Assembly (NCBI RefSeq): GCF_004339015.1
Contig: NZ_SMFQ01000004.1
Coordinates: 805,901-869,900 of the forward strand
From: Cocleimonas flava
GTDB taxonomy: Bacteria; Pseudomonadota; Gammaproteobacteria; Thiotrichales; Thiotrichaceae
Reading direction: 5' to 3'
DNA: 64,000 nucleotides
Positions 42,761 to 50,252 of the stretch are shown here, in pieces. The translations under genes and the position numbers were made by a program. Positions within the stretch are counted from its first letter, which is position 1. Every line of letters begins with the position of its first letter. A model generated the notes under the pieces. The model worked only from the letters and a program-made list of their open reading frames with translations, had not been told where the DNA came from and did not search any database.

Positions 42761-43504
42761 GTGAACGCAGTTTCCCAACAAATGAATCTTTCACCCATCA
42801 ACGTCAAGTTGGATCTCGATTTTAACAAGGTCAGTCAAATCCTGATCGAAGAGAACGACGAGCCACTCGTGGAATTGAGTCAAACCGATTCACAGATTAA
42901 GGTAGTACCGGTTTATGCCGAACAAGGCATTCCCGGTGCGATTAGTCAGTGTTACGTTCGCCAAAGTGTCTATCTGCGCTTACTCAATGTAGCAAGCTCT
43001 TTACCCGCTTGCTACACACTCGTTGTACTGGATAGCTGGCGACCAACTCGCGTTCAGCAATACCTTTTTGATACCTTTAAAGAATCTATTCGTGCGAACA
43101 ACCCTCTCATTGGGGAGGCTGAACTGTTACAGAAAACGCAGGAGTTTGTTGCCAAACCGAGCAGCGATGTGAAGTCTCCCAGTTTTCATCTCACCGGTGG
43201 ATCTGTTGATGTAACGCTTAGCGATTCAGATGGTCAGATTTTAGACATGGGCTCATTATTCGACGAAGGCATTCCTGAGTCGCACACAGCGTTCTTAGAA
43301 ACCAAGCAAGAACTGACACACTCGGAATGCATGGCGCAAACTCATAGAAGATGCCTATATTGGGCAATGATAGATCAAGGGTTCACAAACCTGGATAGCG
43401 AATGGTGGCATTACGATTTTGGGAATCAGTTATGGGCTTATTACACCGGCAATAAACGCGCTATTTATGGTCCTACAAGTCCGAAAGGATACATAAGTGA
43501 ATAG
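42761..43504 (+). CDS. D-Ala-D-Ala dipeptidase-like (VanX/M15D) protein in a TRAP operon
   Basis: The 247-residue protein starts with GTG 5 bp after dctM. It has the M15 zinc site of VanX-type dipeptidases: LDSWRPTRVQ (Arg contact), SFHLTGGSVDVTL (SxHxxGxxxD with His and Asp ligands) and EWWHYDFG (catalytic Glu and His ligand). It lacks a signal peptide, so it would act in the cytoplasm. Coupling to a TRAP transporter suggests that it cleaves an imported dipeptide or amino-acid conjugate. Confidence 0.88.
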   Translation: MNAVSQQMNLSPINVKLDLDFNKVSQILIEENDEPLVELSQTDSQIKVVPVYAEQGIPGAISQCYVRQSVYLRLLNVASSLPACYTLVVLDSWRPTRVQQYLFDTFKESIRANNPLIGEAELLQKTQEFVAKPSSDVKSPSFHLTGGSVDVTLSDSDGQILDMGSLFDEGIPESHTAFLETKQELTHSECMAQTHRRCLYWAMIDQGFTNLDSEWWHYDFGNQLWAYYTGNKRAIYGPTSPKGYISE

Positions 43505-43697
43505 AACATTTTTGCTGAATCCACTAAAAGACGTTGATGCAATAATCGGCGCAATAACTGACGCAATAATTGACGCAAATAAAGGATCAATAAATTAATA
43601 CTTCGCCTATCCGTTAGTTGTTATGCTATTCACATATAATGCTAGCTTTAATTTATATAAAGAATAAGTAGCCACAACCATCAAGTCAGGAGAACGT

Positions 43698-44768
43698 ATG
43701 TACCAAAAGCGGAATACATTGATCATGGTATTTTCTGCTGTTGCCTTGATCGCTTGCGGAGGTGGTGGAAGTAAATCCGAAGAGCAAACGCAGCAGACAG
43801 GTGACGATAGTGGCTCTTCTGTTTCGACTACAACTCCTACAACTCCAGCAACAACTATTCCAGATACACCAACAACGCCAGCTACTAGCGAGCCACGTGT
43901 CATCGAAAATCTGGGTGCGGTTAGCAACGAAATACTTGATGAATACAACGGATATCAGGGTAGCGCCGCTGCTGGTGAATCTCGCTTTGTGTGTCATCCT
44001 GTTCGGATAGAGACTGTCGACCCTATTCTCAACCCAGGTGCTATCTCGAATCACGAACACATATTCTGGGGCAATGCGGCAACCAACCGCAACTCAACCT
44101 ACGATTCCCTAATCAACGAACCTGCTGGAGCGTCTTGTTCTGGTGGCGCCATCAACAAATCAGCCTACTGGATGCCTACCCTGCTCGACCCAGAAGGTAA
44201 TCCCGTTATTCCAGATGTCATATTCAACTATTACAAAACGGGCTATCAAGGACAAGATGCTAGCGCCATCATCTCAATGCCTGCAGGTCTGCAGATGATC
44301 TCGTCACAAAACCCGAACTACTTTGATGGAGCCTTCACCAACTGGTCAACGGGTCCTGATTTTCAAGGTGGCGATAATGAACAGCGATACCTACCCGATG
44401 AGGCTCCACAGTGGTTACGCGCAACGGTTGGCTTTCCTCAATGCTGGAACGGTGTCGAACTGACCTCAGCAAACGGCAAAGATCATGTCGCACACCATAA
44501 CGGTGGTCAGTGCCCCAGCACACATCCGGTGCTATTGCCCGAGCTGACTATTTCAGCATCATGGGAAATTGGTGGTTCGCTGGAAGGATATCAACTCTCT
44601 TCCGATGCAGCCAACGGCGCGCAACCAGGTGAACTACTGCATGCCGATTTCATGGATGCATGGGACCCTGCGTGGATGGATCTCATCGTCACGCGTTGTC
44701 TTAACGCAGAGATCGACTGTGGCACTCGACAGATTGGTCAGTTTGGATTAATCGATCCAAGCTTTTGA
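43698..44768 (+). CDS. DUF1996 lipoprotein
   Basis: The 356-residue protein has a lipobox (LIACG, Cys about 20) and a Thr/Pro-rich linker to about residue 68. A DUF1996 domain follows: FVCHPVRIETVDPILNPGAISNHEHIFWGN, YWMPTLLDPEGN, TVGFPQCWNGVELTSANGKDHVAHHNGGQCPSTHPVLLPEL. The conserved His/Asp/Cys pattern is like that of secreted DUF1996 proteins of bacteria and fungi, of unknown function. A C6-core terminator follows about 35 bp after the stop. Confidence 0.88.
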   Translation: MYQKRNTLIMVFSAVALIACGGGGSKSEEQTQQTGDDSGSSVSTTTPTTPATTIPDTPTTPATSEPRVIENLGAVSNEILDEYNGYQGSAAAGESRFVCHPVRIETVDPILNPGAISNHEHIFWGNAATNRNSTYDSLINEPAGASCSGGAINKSAYWMPTLLDPEGNPVIPDVIFNYYKTGYQGQDASAIISMPAGLQMISSQNPNYFDGAFTNWSTGPDFQGGDNEQRYLPDEAPQWLRATVGFPQCWNGVELTSANGKDHVAHHNGGQCPSTHPVLLPELTISASWEIGGSLEGYQLSSDAANGAQPGELLHADFMDAWDPAWMDLIVTRCLNAEIDCGTRQIGQFGLIDPSF

Positions 44769-44801
44769 GAACAACTAGCTTTTGAAAACAAATAGTCAAA
44801 A

Positions 44802-44832
44802 GGCACCCCCCTACTTTGGGGCGTTTTTTTTT
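44802..44832 (+). terminator. C6-core terminator element, copy 15
   Basis: GGCACCCCCCTACTTTGGGG then CGTTTTTTTTT, 33 bp after the DUF1996 stop on the same strand; a well-formed terminator. Confidence 0.8.
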
Positions 44833-44926
44833 CGATGTATTATTAGATCTACTGAATCCCTAATCGCCAGATGCTTTGGCTTAGTTTAGATTAGTTTAGC
44901 CGTACAAGCTGCTTTGTTACCATGGT

Positions 44927-45859
44927 TTACAATTCGTACAACAACCCCAGTAAGCCGCTTTTCTTCTGCTTTGGTGGTTTTTTAATATTGCGTAGTTCGC
45001 GGCTTTTCTTCACCAGTTCATGAATTATAGGCATCAAAATAATTTCCAGCGCATGCATCATCTGACTACCAGGAACGACCATGGTATTTCTACCAGACAT
45101 AAACGAATTCTTAATATGTTGCAAATAACGGGGGAAATCAGGATTATCAATTTTCTGAAAATTGATCACTAAATAACACTCTTCAAGCGTCGGCTCATCT
45201 CTGGCAGAAAACGGATCGGACGTATCCACGATCGGAATCATTTGTAGATTGATGTGAGTGCGCGAAAACTGCGGCGTGATGTGCTCCGCATAATCCCTCA
45301 TGCGATCAATAATCGTATCCTGAACTTCTTCGCGAGTGTAATTGCGCAGAGTATTGTCGCGCTTCATCTTACGAATCCATTCGAGATTGACGTTCGGCGC
45401 TACACCCACCAACAAATCAGGATACTGCGCCAGATTAATATCGCCCCACACCGCGGCGCCATGATGCCCACGATACAGCAACAGATCACTCTTTCGGGGT
45501 AGCTCCTTCCACGGAGTAAAGGTGCCCGACTCCTGTTCAAAACGATCCGCGAGTTTTTGCGTATGCAAATAATAACGCGACATTCCAGTACCAACAGCCG
45601 CATATTGAAAGAACAGAGATTCCAGTTTATCCAGATGATTACCTTCAGGACTGTAGTGACTTAAGACTTTACCCTCACCCTTGGCTTTTTCGATTTCAAC
45701 TCGCATTTGCTTGCGATCATAACGATGAAACGCATTGCCCTGAATATAAACCGCCTTAACGCGCTCGCGAAAAAAGATATTCTCAAACGCTTGCGTAACC
45801 GCAGCGCTACCAGCACCGGCCGAACTAACAAATGCAATAATCGGGTGTTCTGCAGACAT
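44927..45859 (-). CDS. Phosphoribulokinase paralogue lacking key catalytic residues
   Basis: The 310-residue protein aligns along its length with class I bacterial phosphoribulokinase (VKAVYIQGNAFHRYDRKQM, NLEWIRKMKRDNTLR, FSRTHINLQMIPIVDTSDPF, MVVPGSQMMHALEIILMPII). However, the P-loop reads SSAGAGSAAV where the enzyme has GSSGAGTSTV. The catalytic-base Asp42 is Asn42, and the Glu of YEGLHG is Arg129 (YRGHHG). The Arg-Asp at 168-169 of the Rhodobacter enzyme is kept (KRD). It is probably not an active PRK, yet the full-length frame is preserved. No RuBisCO genes are near. Confidence 0.85.
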   Translation of the reverse strand: MSAEHPIIAFVSSAGAGSAAVTQAFENIFFRERVKAVYIQGNAFHRYDRKQMRVEIEKAKGEGKVLSHYSPEGNHLDKLESLFFQYAAVGTGMSRYYLHTQKLADRFEQESGTFTPWKELPRKSDLLLYRGHHGAAVWGDINLAQYPDLLVGVAPNVNLEWIRKMKRDNTLRNYTREEVQDTIIDRMRDYAEHITPQFSRTHINLQMIPIVDTSDPFSARDEPTLEECYLVINFQKIDNPDFPRYLQHIKNSFMSGRNTMVVPGSQMMHALEIILMPIIHELVKKSRELRNIKKPPKQKKSGLLGLLYEL

Positions 45860-45976
45860 ACAACTTCCTGTGATTTGGAGTTAGGATTGACTGTAACTCA
45901 AGTCAGTTTAGTTGATGTATAAAACGAATCCCATACCACAAAAGGCATAAGCCAATGTGTGTTGAGCATACCTAAA

Positions 45977-46006
45977 GGTCACCCCCTATTTTGGGGCAGT
46001 TTTTTT
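45977..46006 (+). repeat. C6-core element, variant copy 16 (antisense)
   Basis: TCACCCCCTATTTTGGGGCAG with a T-run, a slightly diverged copy (C5 and TATTTT) in + orientation between two - strand genes. Confidence 0.65.
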
Positions 46007-46020
46007 AATGATATCCTATC

Positions 46021-46110
46021 CGTAAGTCGGATAAACGCACCGTCACCCGATATGAATATGTTCATTAACACACAAATATCGGATGGCGAGACTTATCCGA
46101 TCTCCGATAT
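46021..46110. repeat. REP-like imperfect palindrome
   Basis: TCGGATAA and CCCGATAT (left) pair with ATATCGG and TTATCCGA (right) around an AT-rich loop. The right arm CGGATGGCGAGACTTATCCG resembles an enterobacterial REP unit. It lies directly 3' of the reverse-transcriptase-tail/CTERM fusion gene. Confidence 0.55.
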
Positions 46111-46115
46111 GCGGG

Positions 46116-46808
46116 TTACCGCGTTTGTAAGCTTTTAAGTTTTATCGAACGACGACGTCCAAACCAAAGCAGACCACTAATCGTTGCTACTATACCTAGG
46201 GGAGTGAAAATTGGTACCGCTGTTGGATCGGCTATTGATCGCAACGTTGCAGTTATATCAACAGCAGTTGTTGCGGTATCAGTAATCGTAACTTGATAAG
46301 TGCAGCGAAGATCTCCACTGACTAAGTTTGCGTAAAACGGTATATTTGAAGTCATGATAAAAGGCGGAGTCCCTTCTAAACACGTGGTATCATCTAGGTC
46401 TGGAGCAGTAAGCGACTCGCATATTTGCGGGATGTTAAAATTAGTATCCCCCAACATATATGGCCCGTAAACAGCCCCCCCTCCACTCGGAAGTCGTAAA
46501 ATCAAATCAACGTCATCTATTACAGACGATTCGCAGTCGGTGGCGGGCTCAGCCGCATAAACTGTCGAACATACCGATATCAGCCCACACAAACTCCACC
46601 CCAACCACTGTCTAAGATACTGCCCACTGGGCTTATTATTCGCACCTTTCTCATAATGCCAGAGAACCTTTTTATTTCGACATGACACGTAAGTATTTGA
46701 TGCTTGAATACTGGTGGGAGTAATTCTAAACCCTAAAAAATCAAAGCTGTTTTTTGCTCGACCTAGCCATGTTTTATCAGGGTGACTCTCAACGTTAAGC
46801 GATTTCAT
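46116..46808 (-). CDS. Reverse-transcriptase C-terminal segment fused to an IPTL-CTERM-like exported protein
   Basis: The 230-residue chain has two unlike parts. Residues 1 to about 75 (HPDKTWLGRAKNSFDFLGFR ... GQYLRQWLGWSLCGL) match the C-terminal end of group II-like reverse transcriptases, without the catalytic domain. From about residue 60, QYLRQWLGWSLCGLISVCS plus TVYA can serve as a signal peptide. The rest is an exported domain (CESSVIDDVDLILRLPSGG) ending in a CTERM-type tail: TPLGIVATISGLLWFGRRR. The ATG has a plausible Shine-Dalgarno (aagg). The gene is intact. Confidence 0.65.
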   Translation of the reverse strand: MKSLNVESHPDKTWLGRAKNSFDFLGFRITPTSIQASNTYVSCRNKKVLWHYEKGANNKPSGQYLRQWLGWSLCGLISVCSTVYAAEPATDCESSVIDDVDLILRLPSGGGAVYGPYMLGDTNFNIPQICESLTAPDLDDTTCLEGTPPFIMTSNIPFYANLVSGDLRCTYQVTITDTATTAVDITATLRSIADPTAVPIFTPLGIVATISGLLWFGRRRSIKLKSLQTR

Positions 46809-47600
46809 AATACTGTATACCTTATAGATTGTTTAGGGTGATGGAGTTACGAGGGAATATGGGTAAAACGCGTAAGTTGATCATCATATTTAGACTATGA
46901 ACACGCGTTAATGCAAAAAAACTGTATGAGAGCGAATAGCGTTCTTTATAACTTTAGACATAATGGGGTAAGAGGGTATTTTTAAATTGATTTGATGTGT
47001 TGAATACGAGGCGCCAAACAACAAAAAAATCAAAAGTCAGACACACAGAAATGCACGTCGCAAAACGTGAGTTGATAAAAAACAATTGATTACTGAGCTT
47101 CCCTGCCTGCATTAAAGCCTCTACAACACGTTAAAACTAATAGGTCAGTAGGCATTTATTATTATGTTGAATTAGTGTTGCATCGAACGACAACGGTGCT
47201 TCCCTTGTAGCACTTATAGCACAAACAAATTCACTAACAAAGGTATGAAAAAATCTAATCTTTGATATTGCGACTGCACTATTCAGTAAACTACTGAAAC
47301 TGTTAAACATTATAAAAGACAAGAAATTGATAAGCGTTGAGACATTAGAAGAGAGCTTCTATCATGAAAGTTGCTCCTTAAGACTCACTAAGACTAAGTG
47401 GGGGAAGCATGGTGCAGTGCTGGTTGTAGCATGGGAAACATTTTATAGAGCCACCCCCCCTACTTTGGGGCGGTTTTTCTATATCGCAAAAAAAAGTAAA
47501 TCAAAAACACGTAGATAATAACGCAGGATTTTTGCTCCTGTTTGGCTTATATCGTAAGGCGCAAAGTCTATCCATGCGCCGAACGATATATTAAACAGTA
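46809..47600. other. Long AT-rich spacer
   Basis: About 790 bp between the fusion gene and pepN. Short frames exist (for example 47137-47322 minus and 47327-47518 plus) but none has a convincing start, composition or homology. I see no remnant of the missing reverse-transcriptase domain here. The only clear feature is the C6 element at 47450. Confidence 0.55.
47450..47478 (+). repeat. C6-core element, copy 17 (antisense to pepN)
   Basis: GCCACCCCCCCTACTTTGGG then GCGGTTTTT, + orientation, 3' of the - strand pepN gene. The C-run here has seven Cs. Confidence 0.75.
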
Positions 47601-50252
47601 CTATAGTGCTTTACTAACAATCTCAAAAACATCCCCTGATAACCCATCAATCGCCTTAATACGCTCTAACTGCGCACGCATTAACTCAGAACGTCCTGGC
47701 TCATATTGTCTCCAGTTCATTAGCGCACGAGCCATTCTTGAGGCAACTTGTGGGTTGAAGGCATCCAGTTCTATTACCCGGTCTGCGTGGAATTCGTAAC
47801 CTGAACCATCCGCGCTGTGGAAGTTTACTGGGTTGCCATTAGCGAATGCGCCAACCAGTGAACGGACTTTATTCGGGTTTTTCATGTCGAATAATTTATG
47901 GTCCATCAATACTTTAACATTGTCTAAGGTATCTGGCAGGCTTGATGTGGCTTGCATTACAAACCATTTATCCATCACCAAAGTGTCGTGTTCCCATTTC
48001 GCTTCAAAATCAGCGAAGGCTTGGTCGCGTTCTGGGCATTGCATGTCTGATAAACAACTTAGCGCTGCCAAGGTGTCTGTCATGTTGCCGCCCTCTTTTA
48101 ATGACTGAGAGAATTGCTGATAGATCAACGCGCCGACGGCAGGATCGTTGAGCTGGCTGATATAAGCCAGACAGGTATTTTTTAGACGTCGCTTGCCGAT
48201 GCTTACTGCATCTGGTGAATATTCTTCTGCGCTTAGTTGGTTGATTAAATGCCCATAGGTATTTTCTAGTGGAATACGTAAGCTCGATGCGATGGTTTTC
48301 AAGATCAGTTCGCGGACTTCGTGAATCGCTTCTGGATCGGCTTTGTGTTCTGTCGATGCCATCGCTTCCGCCAGGTCATTTTCTGATGGTAGCGTTAGTG
48401 CTTCTGCTTTCAGCGCATTATCTAAATCATCATCCATCAGGACTTGTTGATAGGCACTGATAACTTCAGGCTCTACTCCGATTGGTTTGCCCATTGCTTT
48501 GTCTTCGAGCATTTGCATCATCAGCGTTTTTGCGAGACGTTGACTGGCTTCCCAACGATTAAATTGGTCACTATCGTGTTGCATCAGGAAGATGGTTTCT
48601 TCAGTGGTGTAATCGTAGTTTAGCTTTACAGGCGCTGAGAAATCTCTAAGCAATGATGGCAATGGTTTTGCAGTAATGCCTTTAAATCGCACGCTTTGCG
48701 TTTGTTTGGTTAGCTGGATGGTTTCGCTCAATAGCTCTTTGCCCGGTTTGATGCTTGAAACATCAATCAAACCGATTTTGATGGGAATCAGGTATGGCTT
48801 TTTATCTTCTGCATTGGCTTCTGGCGTGGTGGTGTATGACTGCGTGAGGTTCAAGGTACAGCTATTTTCTTCTTCGTCGTAATCCATGGTTACGTCAACC
48901 GTTGGCGTACCGGCTTGATCGTACCAGTTCTGCATTTGGCTTAAATCCATGTCGTTGGCATCGGCCATTGCCGCGAGGAAGTCTTCGGTGGTAACCGCTT
49001 GACCATCGTGACGTTCGAAGTATAAATCCATGCCTTTACGGAAACCGTCTTGACCTAGCAGTGTGTTGTAAAGACGAACGATTTCAGCGCCCTTTTCATA
49101 CACAGTCAGGGTGTAGAAGTTATTGATTTCCATAAACGATGATGGACGAATCGGATGCGCCATTGGGCTTGCATCTTCAGCGAATTGCAGCGTTCTTAAA
49201 CTACGTACATCTTCGATACGTTTTACCGCACGCGAGTGTAAATCGGCAGTGAATTCCTGATCGCGGAAAACGGTTAACCCTTCTTTAAGGCTTAACTGGA
49301 ACCAATCGCGACAGGTGACGCGGTTACCTGTCCAGTTGTGGAAGTATTCGTGGCCGATGACTGCTTCGATATTGGTGTAATCATTATCTGTTGCGGTTTC
49401 TGGGCTAGCGAAAACCAACTTTGAGTTAAAGACATTCAAGCCTTTGTTTTCCATTGCGCCCATATTGAAATCATCAACGGCAACGACCATGTAGATATCT
49501 AGATCGTATTCAAGTCCGAAGCGATCTTCATCCCATTTCATCGCGCGTTTTAGCGATTGCATGGCGTGATCGCATTTGTCGATATTGTGCGCTTCGGTGT
49601 AAATTTCTAACTTTACGTCTTTGCCTGATGTGGTGGTGTAACTGTCTGTTACGTGCTCTAAATCACCCGCAACTAATGCGAAAAGATAGGCAGGCTTTTT
49701 GAACGGGTCTTCCCAGACTGCAAAGTGTTTACCCTCATCAAGATCTCCTGAATCAATTAGATTGCCGTTAGAAAGCATCACTGGGTATTTTGTTTTATCG
49801 GCACGAATCGTGGTGACGAATTTACCCATCACGTCAGGACGATCGAGGAAGTAAGTGATTTTGCGGAACCCTTGCGCTTCACACTGGGTGCAGAAGTTTC
49901 CGCTAGACTGATACAAACCTTCAAGAGACTTATTGTCTTGCGGATAAATTTTGGTGACGATTTCCAAGCTAAACTCATCTGCCAGGTTTGACAGAATCAG
50001 ACTTTCATCTTCTAGCGCATAATCCTTATCCGTCAATTCATAGCCATTTAAGGTAATCGATTGCAGCTCTAACTCGGCGCCAAACAATTCCAGTTCGGTT
50101 GCCGTGGCTTCTGCGTTTCGCAGATATTGTACTTTAGAGGTAACAATTGCGTGGTCATCAAACAAATCAAACGCCAGATCGACAGTATCAATCCAGAATG
50201 CAGGTTGTTGATAATCTTTGAGGTAAATAGTCTGTGCTTGAGCGTTTTTCAT
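47601..50252 (-). CDS. pepN: Aminopeptidase N
   Basis: This is a cytoplasmic M1-family zinc metallopeptidase removing N-terminal residues from peptides. The 883-residue protein contains the exopeptidase motif GAMENKGLNVF (about 261-271), the zinc site VIGHEYFHNWTGNRVTCRDWFQLSLKEGLTVFRDQEF (HEXXH plus downstream Glu), the catalytic Tyr in NFYTLTVYEKGAEIVR, and a long helical C-terminus as in E. coli PepN. Length matches the family (about 870). Confidence 0.97.
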   Translation of the reverse strand: MKNAQAQTIYLKDYQQPAFWIDTVDLAFDLFDDHAIVTSKVQYLRNAEATATELELFGAELELQSITLNGYELTDKDYALEDESLILSNLADEFSLEIVTKIYPQDNKSLEGLYQSSGNFCTQCEAQGFRKITYFLDRPDVMGKFVTTIRADKTKYPVMLSNGNLIDSGDLDEGKHFAVWEDPFKKPAYLFALVAGDLEHVTDSYTTTSGKDVKLEIYTEAHNIDKCDHAMQSLKRAMKWDEDRFGLEYDLDIYMVVAVDDFNMGAMENKGLNVFNSKLVFASPETATDNDYTNIEAVIGHEYFHNWTGNRVTCRDWFQLSLKEGLTVFRDQEFTADLHSRAVKRIEDVRSLRTLQFAEDASPMAHPIRPSSFMEINNFYTLTVYEKGAEIVRLYNTLLGQDGFRKGMDLYFERHDGQAVTTEDFLAAMADANDMDLSQMQNWYDQAGTPTVDVTMDYDEEENSCTLNLTQSYTTTPEANAEDKKPYLIPIKIGLIDVSSIKPGKELLSETIQLTKQTQSVRFKGITAKPLPSLLRDFSAPVKLNYDYTTEETIFLMQHDSDQFNRWEASQRLAKTLMMQMLEDKAMGKPIGVEPEVISAYQQVLMDDDLDNALKAEALTLPSENDLAEAMASTEHKADPEAIHEVRELILKTIASSLRIPLENTYGHLINQLSAEEYSPDAVSIGKRRLKNTCLAYISQLNDPAVGALIYQQFSQSLKEGGNMTDTLAALSCLSDMQCPERDQAFADFEAKWEHDTLVMDKWFVMQATSSLPDTLDNVKVLMDHKLFDMKNPNKVRSLVGAFANGNPVNFHSADGSGYEFHADRVIELDAFNPQVASRMARALMNWRQYEPGRSELMRAQLERIKAIDGLSGDVFEIVSKAL

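Follow-up and report, generated by a model that had tools for sequence, protein, structure and literature searches.

In the window, by which we mean the whole 64,000-nucleotide stretch of Cocleimonas flava DNA analyzed here, an ORF of 230 aa on the minus strand (46116-46808) begins with what resembles the end of a reverse transcriptase (RT) and continues as a predicted exported protein. How an RT end came to precede such a protein, and whether it has a role there, are the questions that this locus raises. Comparison with relatives makes it likely that the gene is an RT-less descendant of fusions that join a UG4 RT, by way of a signal peptide, to a surface protein that is exported and anchored at its C-terminus.

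Identity of the RT tail

A tblastn search of a 7 kb stretch with the RT L078, from f33, another family of the same class, aligned window positions 46832-46596 at 44% identity (E 1.2e-16), with RT homology beginning about 8 codons upstream of the ORF's ATG (window 46832). The tail thus delimited by tblastn and profile (46596-46832, minus strand) comprises these 8 codons and residues 1-71, in which HPDKT and FDFLGF motifs are followed by a basic QYLRQWLGW helix. A profile of 21 UG4-type RTs, from which the window's genus was excluded, was run against all stop-to-stop window segments of at least 20 aa. The ORF was the sole match among 1848 segments (E 1.2e-19), over model positions 240-318 of 327 only, and the polymerase core and YMDD are missing from it, as the first-pass annotation had stated.

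The RT end of about 75 residues described there as group II-like is thus recovered nearly in full, but its class is UG4. In a scan with class models UG4 was the best model for all five RT relatives (L078, 9.7e-84; L156, 3.2e-91; L169, 1.3e-135; L172, 1.1e-131; L014, 2.9e-98), the next specific class for L078 being UG17 (1.1e-32); the window tail itself is assigned through our own UG4 profile and these class-scanned relatives. For the window protein the group II model gave no better than E 0.028, and a group II intron RT was rejected. Rfam at the gathering score found neither group II intron RNA nor any other known ncRNA at eight loci. Six UG4-type RTs searched against Pfam matched RVT_1, with a single further match, to RdRP_1, that stayed below its cut-off; none showed a maturase domain.

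Window 43000-50000 yielded no other RT remnant, in line with the reported lack of one upstream, except that homology extends the 8 codons beyond the ATG and that the congener G003 keeps remnants of the RT palm. An RT gene with the same end had been proposed as something to seek in the window's own genome (G000, 4.49 Mb in 10 contigs); PF00078, the RT family, has no match there at E≤1.

Layout of the gene and its C-terminus

The ORF has an ATG start and no internal stops, and its frame and homologues divide it into four parts: RT-tail leader, signal-peptide core, cargo and CTERM-like end. A putative Shine-Dalgarno (SD) sequence, TAAGG (46820-46824, minus strand), lies 11 nt 5' of the ATG, where the sequence is homologous to RT codons K-V-Y. 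A similar layout (AAGG or GAGG, then ATTATG) is present in L015, L016 and L018. The predicted hydrophobic core with a candidate VYA cleavage motif occupies residues 72-85 (46554-46595, minus strand; hydropathy and charge script). It is followed by the presumed exported cargo, residues 86-195 (46224-46553, minus strand), which contains cysteines and is related to the cargos of G003. The cargo has no Pfam match at E≤1, and an AlphaFold2 model from a two-row alignment was useless (mean pLDDT 33). A run of seven G on the gene strand within the cargo (46475-46481, minus strand) was picked up by the run scan and is a putative slippage site.

The C-terminus, TAVPIFTPLGIVATISGLLWFGRRR (46149-46223, minus strand), had been called CTERM-like. 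Its motif VPIFTPLG...GRRR recurs in four other ORFs from three genomes of the same family, and a curated IPTL-CTERM is present in the relative L004 (28.1 bits, cut-off 20.5), which upholds the likeness; at E≤1 the window protein is itself unmatched by curated CTERM models, TIGR04174 included. TIGR04174 matches four proteins of the window genome, the window gene not among them, and exosortase H is encoded there (TIGR04177, 170.6 bits, cut-off 86). Like the substrates of the IPTL-CTERM/XrtH system, the window protein combines a predicted signal peptide and cargo with a short motif, a hydrophobic segment and a basic tail, in a genome with XrtH. It differs in that its C-terminus is unmatched by TIGR04174 and its leader is an RT fragment.

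A palindrome-rich stretch lies at the gene's 3' end (46021-46126, minus strand) and partially matches the pepN-PRK spacer of the congener G007 (L184 6346-6464, 70.6% over 119 columns). We take this stretch to be a REP, and an ORF in the G007 spacer to be a RAYT-like transposase. Outside the main ORFs, a terminator-like motif consisting of a C-run, TACTTTGGGG or a variant, and a T-run occurs at window 6193, 30143, 44806 and 47454. A CCCCC form is found near 45982, and the C-runs reach 10 at two sites.

The junction in the genus and class

The junction of RT tail and cargo is found in three of 12 genomes of the genus: the window's own, G003 and G007. Of three copies in G003, two have the tail, both with RT palm remnants upstream, and one (G003c) is strongly degenerate, most of its tail being lost. 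The protein of L015, from a Cocleimonas MAG, is the same as that on contig C196 of G003. The G007 tail precedes a cargo that is rich in glycine and carries a curated IPTL-CTERM; the cargos behind the same junction thus differ between G003 and G007. The DNA shared by the genus copies starts near the SD-like AAGG, in a stretch homologous to RT codons, and this site and the ATG are conserved in three lineages. Between same-genus copies, nucleotide identity is 69-90% in the RT tail against 35-46% in the cargo. That homologues begin at the signal peptide, a case that had been raised against the fusion, is not borne out; they share the 71-residue tail, which is better conserved than the cargo.

At the level of the order, two of 63 other genomes matched (G029 and G048), both with complete RTs of another type. 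In the class sample the tail profile matched 16 of 369 genomes, and among the matches listed all were plain RTs except G091 and the window. Searching for the same junction, as the first-pass annotation had advised, therefore recovered it in G003, G007 and, as described below, 10 of 42 genomes of f33, the family of G091.

Full-length fusions and tail-only genes in f33

The tail profile matches 17 of 57 relatives of G091, and a leader profile matches 13 of 42 f33 genomes. By inspection, RT-derived leaders or fusions are present in 10 of the 42 (G459, G463, G464, G448, G091, G465, G461, G447, G437 and G435, the last missed by the leader profile), a count that covers the matches opened and leaves out four leader-profile matches in G466 and several weak ones. 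In G433, G442 and G446 the matches inspected proved to be RT ends lacking a signal core.

About 24 junction genes were found in f33, seven of them full-length RT fusions and some 17 tail-only. In the seven, the RT, a signal-peptide-like segment and the cargo are in a single ORF (L078, 516 aa from stop to stop; L079, 562; L154, 504; L155, 495; L156, 505; L157, 527; L081, 1246). The RT part is about 340 aa long, and several have a C-terminal hydrophobic segment and basic tail. The catalytic MDD is kept in six of the seven; L081 (G435) has MDE, with insertions. An eighth, broken fusion in G091 (L003) has an RT with an internal loss and its cargo in another frame. In the tree, 21 UG4-type RTs group together against six other RTs (100/99), and the fused RTs form two clades (100/100 and 100/98); the forks between these are unresolved, with a long-branch warning. 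The RT fusions of f33 may thus have had one origin or two.

The tail-only genes seem, to judge from their sequences, to be RT-cargo fusions minus the RT core. The core is lost by 5' truncation or internal deletion, yet the final ~20-90 residues of the RT still read in frame into the cargo. In L158, L161, L080 and the L083 tandem pair the deletion is in frame, and about 20-60 N-terminal RT residues are kept as well as the tail; in the remaining f33 tail-only genes just the tail is left. Tail and cargo are in one open frame in 17 of 17 f33 and 5 of 5 same-genus tail-only genes listed, with the qualification that leader genes were detected as open frames, which favors in-frame cases. Four of the f33 tail-only genes exceed 1000 aa. 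Domains common in surface proteins are present in four of the five large f33 leader proteins scanned: L163 (Laminin_G_3, TSP_3), L077 (Calx-beta, LTD, Big_13), L082 (Calx-beta, fn3) and L085 (Big_5, Ig-like). L083 has Flg_new_2 only, a divergent InlB B-repeat.

Two accounts had been offered for the window gene, namely capture of a retroelement fragment and a family in which RT tails go with CTERM cargo. A single capture is not the best account and is rejected, given the repeated junction and the existence of full fusions; the same recurrence, together with the full-length fusions of f33, supports the pairing.

The tail as a probable secretion leader

The tail was originally proposed to serve as the signal peptide itself. 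What it would provide is an n-region of basic character, directly followed by the hydrophobic core and the candidate cleavage motif; export of the cargo is predicted on this basis. By a crude script, the window leader has a net charge of +2 before the core, a best 10-mer hydropathy of 1.9 and the VYA motif, so that a basic n-region, a hydrophobic core and an AXA-type site are all present in the ORF. Over 28 leaders, a set that leaves out L081 (G435) and the broken G091 fusion, net charge before the W motif is at least +2 in 25, and 10-mer hydropathy after it is at least 1.5 in 18. Charge, hydropathy and cleavage motif are passed together by 15 of the 28, and 13 fail at least one of these crude criteria. 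L079 (G459b) fails at the W motif, with a hydrophobic stretch further downstream. Among unfused UG4-type tails with the anchor, a hydrophobic core follows in one of 11, two being too short to score; two further unfused tails had no anchor.

It could be argued that the protein really starts near residue 60-70, and that the upstream RT match is an unexpressed, chance in-frame extension. A TTG within the WLGW codons could provide such a start, and n-regions as long as that of the window leader are unusual. A start at this TTG would, however, leave no basic residue before the core, while the whole tail and the upstream SD and ATG are common to homologues, and in-frame full-length RT fusions exist. 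We regard this reading as very improbable, and it was rejected on the grounds that homologues carry the tail and the SD/ATG.

The RT tail probably acts, then, as a secretion leader. Translation would start at an ATG inside former RT sequence, from a ribosome site built of RT codons. The basic RT helix would form the n-region of an extended signal peptide and the next ~14 residues its h-region, with signal peptidase I cutting after VYA (residue 85). The cargo would cross the membrane by Sec, with its C-terminus then retained there or processed; exosortase H is a plausible agent. A full fusion would leave its RT on the cytosolic side of the inner membrane and have its cargo exported, coupling the RT to its surface protein.

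Conserved N-terminal extensions upstream of a Sec signal core are known from ESPR in type V secretion and YSIRK/GXXS in Gram-positive surface proteins. By analogy with these, the window leader may work like other extended signal peptides on surface proteins. It differs from them in being derived from an enzyme and unrelated in sequence (no Pfam match at E≤1).

Mosaic structure and selection

Four comparisons (L156/L157, L154/L155, L154/L078 and the L083 tandem) show where the modules meet. In 20-codon windows, nucleotide identity of the RT or leader is mostly 0.83-0.98, lower over the first ~60-80 codons in some, and drops to about 0.24-0.53 directly past the RT end. Toward the C-terminus of L156/L157 it recovers to 0.74-0.83. 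Overall, the RT part of related pairs has ~90% DNA identity and the cargo is unalignable. This boundary in DNA identity at the RT end indicates that the RT module and the cargo have different histories, which insertion, gene conversion or copying by the RT could have brought about. Between the window's genus and f33, blastp linked the cargos of G003a and L078 (2e-5) and of the window and L078 (0.001). A cargo profile test between the two groups listed only shuffled sequences and no real one, and cargo homology, at first considered likely, is unsupported against these shuffled controls.

The RT parts of three fused pairs (five genes of one clade) have dN/dS of 0.16, 0.19 and 0.20 (P 8.5e-11 to 8.1e-18). 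By this measure the fused RT is kept as a protein under strong purifying selection, and it is probably an active enzyme. For tail-only leaders, six same-genus pairs give dN/dS of 0.37-0.63 (binomial P 0.029-0.15 each, uncorrected and from pairs that are not independent), and two f33 pairs give 0.40 and 0.43 (P 0.038 and 0.06). Since selection on the tail-only leaders is weak, the tail might be slowly decaying.

Such decay would fit a dying gene, in which an RT-cargo fusion has become a pseudogene and the RT tail that remains is tolerated as a passive extension of the N-terminus. Besides these dN/dS values of 0.37-0.63, the loss of most of the tail in G003c, the restriction of the junction to three of 12 genomes of the genus and the missing gene in the orthologous pepN-PRK spacer of G007 agree with it. 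The ORF is nevertheless intact, its SD-like site and ATG are conserved in three lineages, and the same last RT residues are repeatedly kept in frame in ~17 f33 genes, four of them over 1000 aa, so that a dying gene is distinctly unlikely.

Alternatively, the tail may be kept as nucleic acid. The 5' region and tail would be recognized or copied by a UG4 RT, tail-only genes would be non-autonomous retrocassettes, and the coding of the tail would be incidental; this is not strictly exclusive of a leader role. L159 and L165, which have different cargos, share 287 bp with 91% identity, of which ~180 bp precede the ORF, the leader dN/dS is only moderately below 1, and same-genus copies are without the RT 5' part. 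On the other hand, the tail is intact and in frame in a window genome without an RT match. The single open frame in 17 f33 and 5 same-genus tail-only genes, internal deletions included, to which L003 of G091 with its cargo in another frame is an exception, and the lack of any Rfam match at gathering score (0 of 8 loci) also speak against retention as nucleic acid, which seems unlikely.

With selection on the tail alone so weak, the leader role is only inferred, mainly from in-frame retention of the tail and its place before the signal core.

Poly-G tracts and the genomic site

A scan of 33 f33 regions, picked for holding RT ends (253,044 bases), found five G/C runs of at least 8, four of them within the RT-tail genes L159, L160, L162 and L164. 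Poly-G tracts 7-10 long are at the same leader position in L159, L162, L164 and L165 (seven in L165), and the L160 tract is in the cargo. At the run length assembled in L159, L164 and L165, a long upstream ATG frame is out of phase, a point against the leader reading. These tracts hint at on/off switching as in phase-variable contingency loci; they could also reflect homopolymer assembly error.

In G007 the pepN and PRK flanks of the window gene are conserved (87% and 83% DNA identity), and the spacer holds other ORFs and not the window gene, which is thus accessory at this site. Direct repeats flanking some f33 genes look like dispersed palindromic elements and were set aside.

UG4 RTs and surface proteins

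According to myRT, fimbrial domains are near 66% of UG4 RTs (PMC8934634), and UG4 is limited to Proteobacteria in an earlier survey (PMC4244168). Our plasmid search matched 175 records, many annotated as group II introns, and 12 regions were chosen by hand among the best 20 of these; two of the 12 RTs were class-modeled as UG4 and the rest taken by similarity to L078. Eight have the RT among fimbrial genes or no more than a few kb from them, two have it beside inverse-autotransporter genes, and two near neither (one of these unannotated). The gene directly 3' of the RT, on either strand, is an exported or surface ORF in 7 of 12, is not in three and is unclear in two. In G279 an exported ORF is convergent with the RT across a 27 bp gap. 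Given this arrangement of neighbors, the f33 fusion looks like its joined form. Convergent pairs of a UG4-type RT and an exported or surface gene were seen with overlapping ends (L169, L170), 27 bp apart (L031) and a few bases apart (L186).

The f33 and window genes share with other UG4 RTs the sequence class of the RT and the company of surface-protein genes. They differ in that RT and exported protein form one in-frame fusion in f33, and that the window has the tail only, in a genome in which no RT was found. A phage or plasmid origin of the fusion was rejected: tblastn found no match to the window protein in plasmids and phages, and the leader alignment found no relative among viral contigs. 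The RT alignment hit at least 80 loci in viral contigs, the best being L193, which is UG4-like, unfused and 40% identical to L078. L193 (IMGVR_UViG_3300021392_000010, on a contig listed as viral) is convergent with other ORFs, which presumably encode proteins resembling contractile-injection baseplate proteins.

Coupling of an RT to variable exported proteins recalls diversity-generating retroelements, but the RT class is another, and the cargo changes by replacement of whole segments, not by point changes. In 17 f33 regions compared, no pair of template and variable repeats stood out, apart from repeats inside two large cargos and the tandem pair of L083. More tentatively, UG4 RTs could be diversifiers of surface proteins, with reverse transcription or cDNA recombination swapping or copying cargo behind a constant RT/leader module; we think this doubtful. 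In the same doubtful scheme, the RT would be tied to the exported protein by operon or convergence in enterobacteria and by a shared polypeptide in f33. If it were true, tail-only genes including that of the window would be its products, and the poly-G tracts of the leaders would add on/off switching.

In the open-access literature searched, with subscription papers and preprints outside its scope, we found no assigned function for UG4 RTs, no fusion of one to an exported protein and no reuse of its tail as a leader. The position of UG4 RTs beside fimbrial genes is known; what the present analysis adds is their fusion to exported proteins and the probable reuse of the tail as a leader. A single polypeptide of RT and exported protein ties UG4 to surface proteins more directly than does neighborhood, and the window gene is a candidate case of an enzyme C-terminus reused as a secretion leader.
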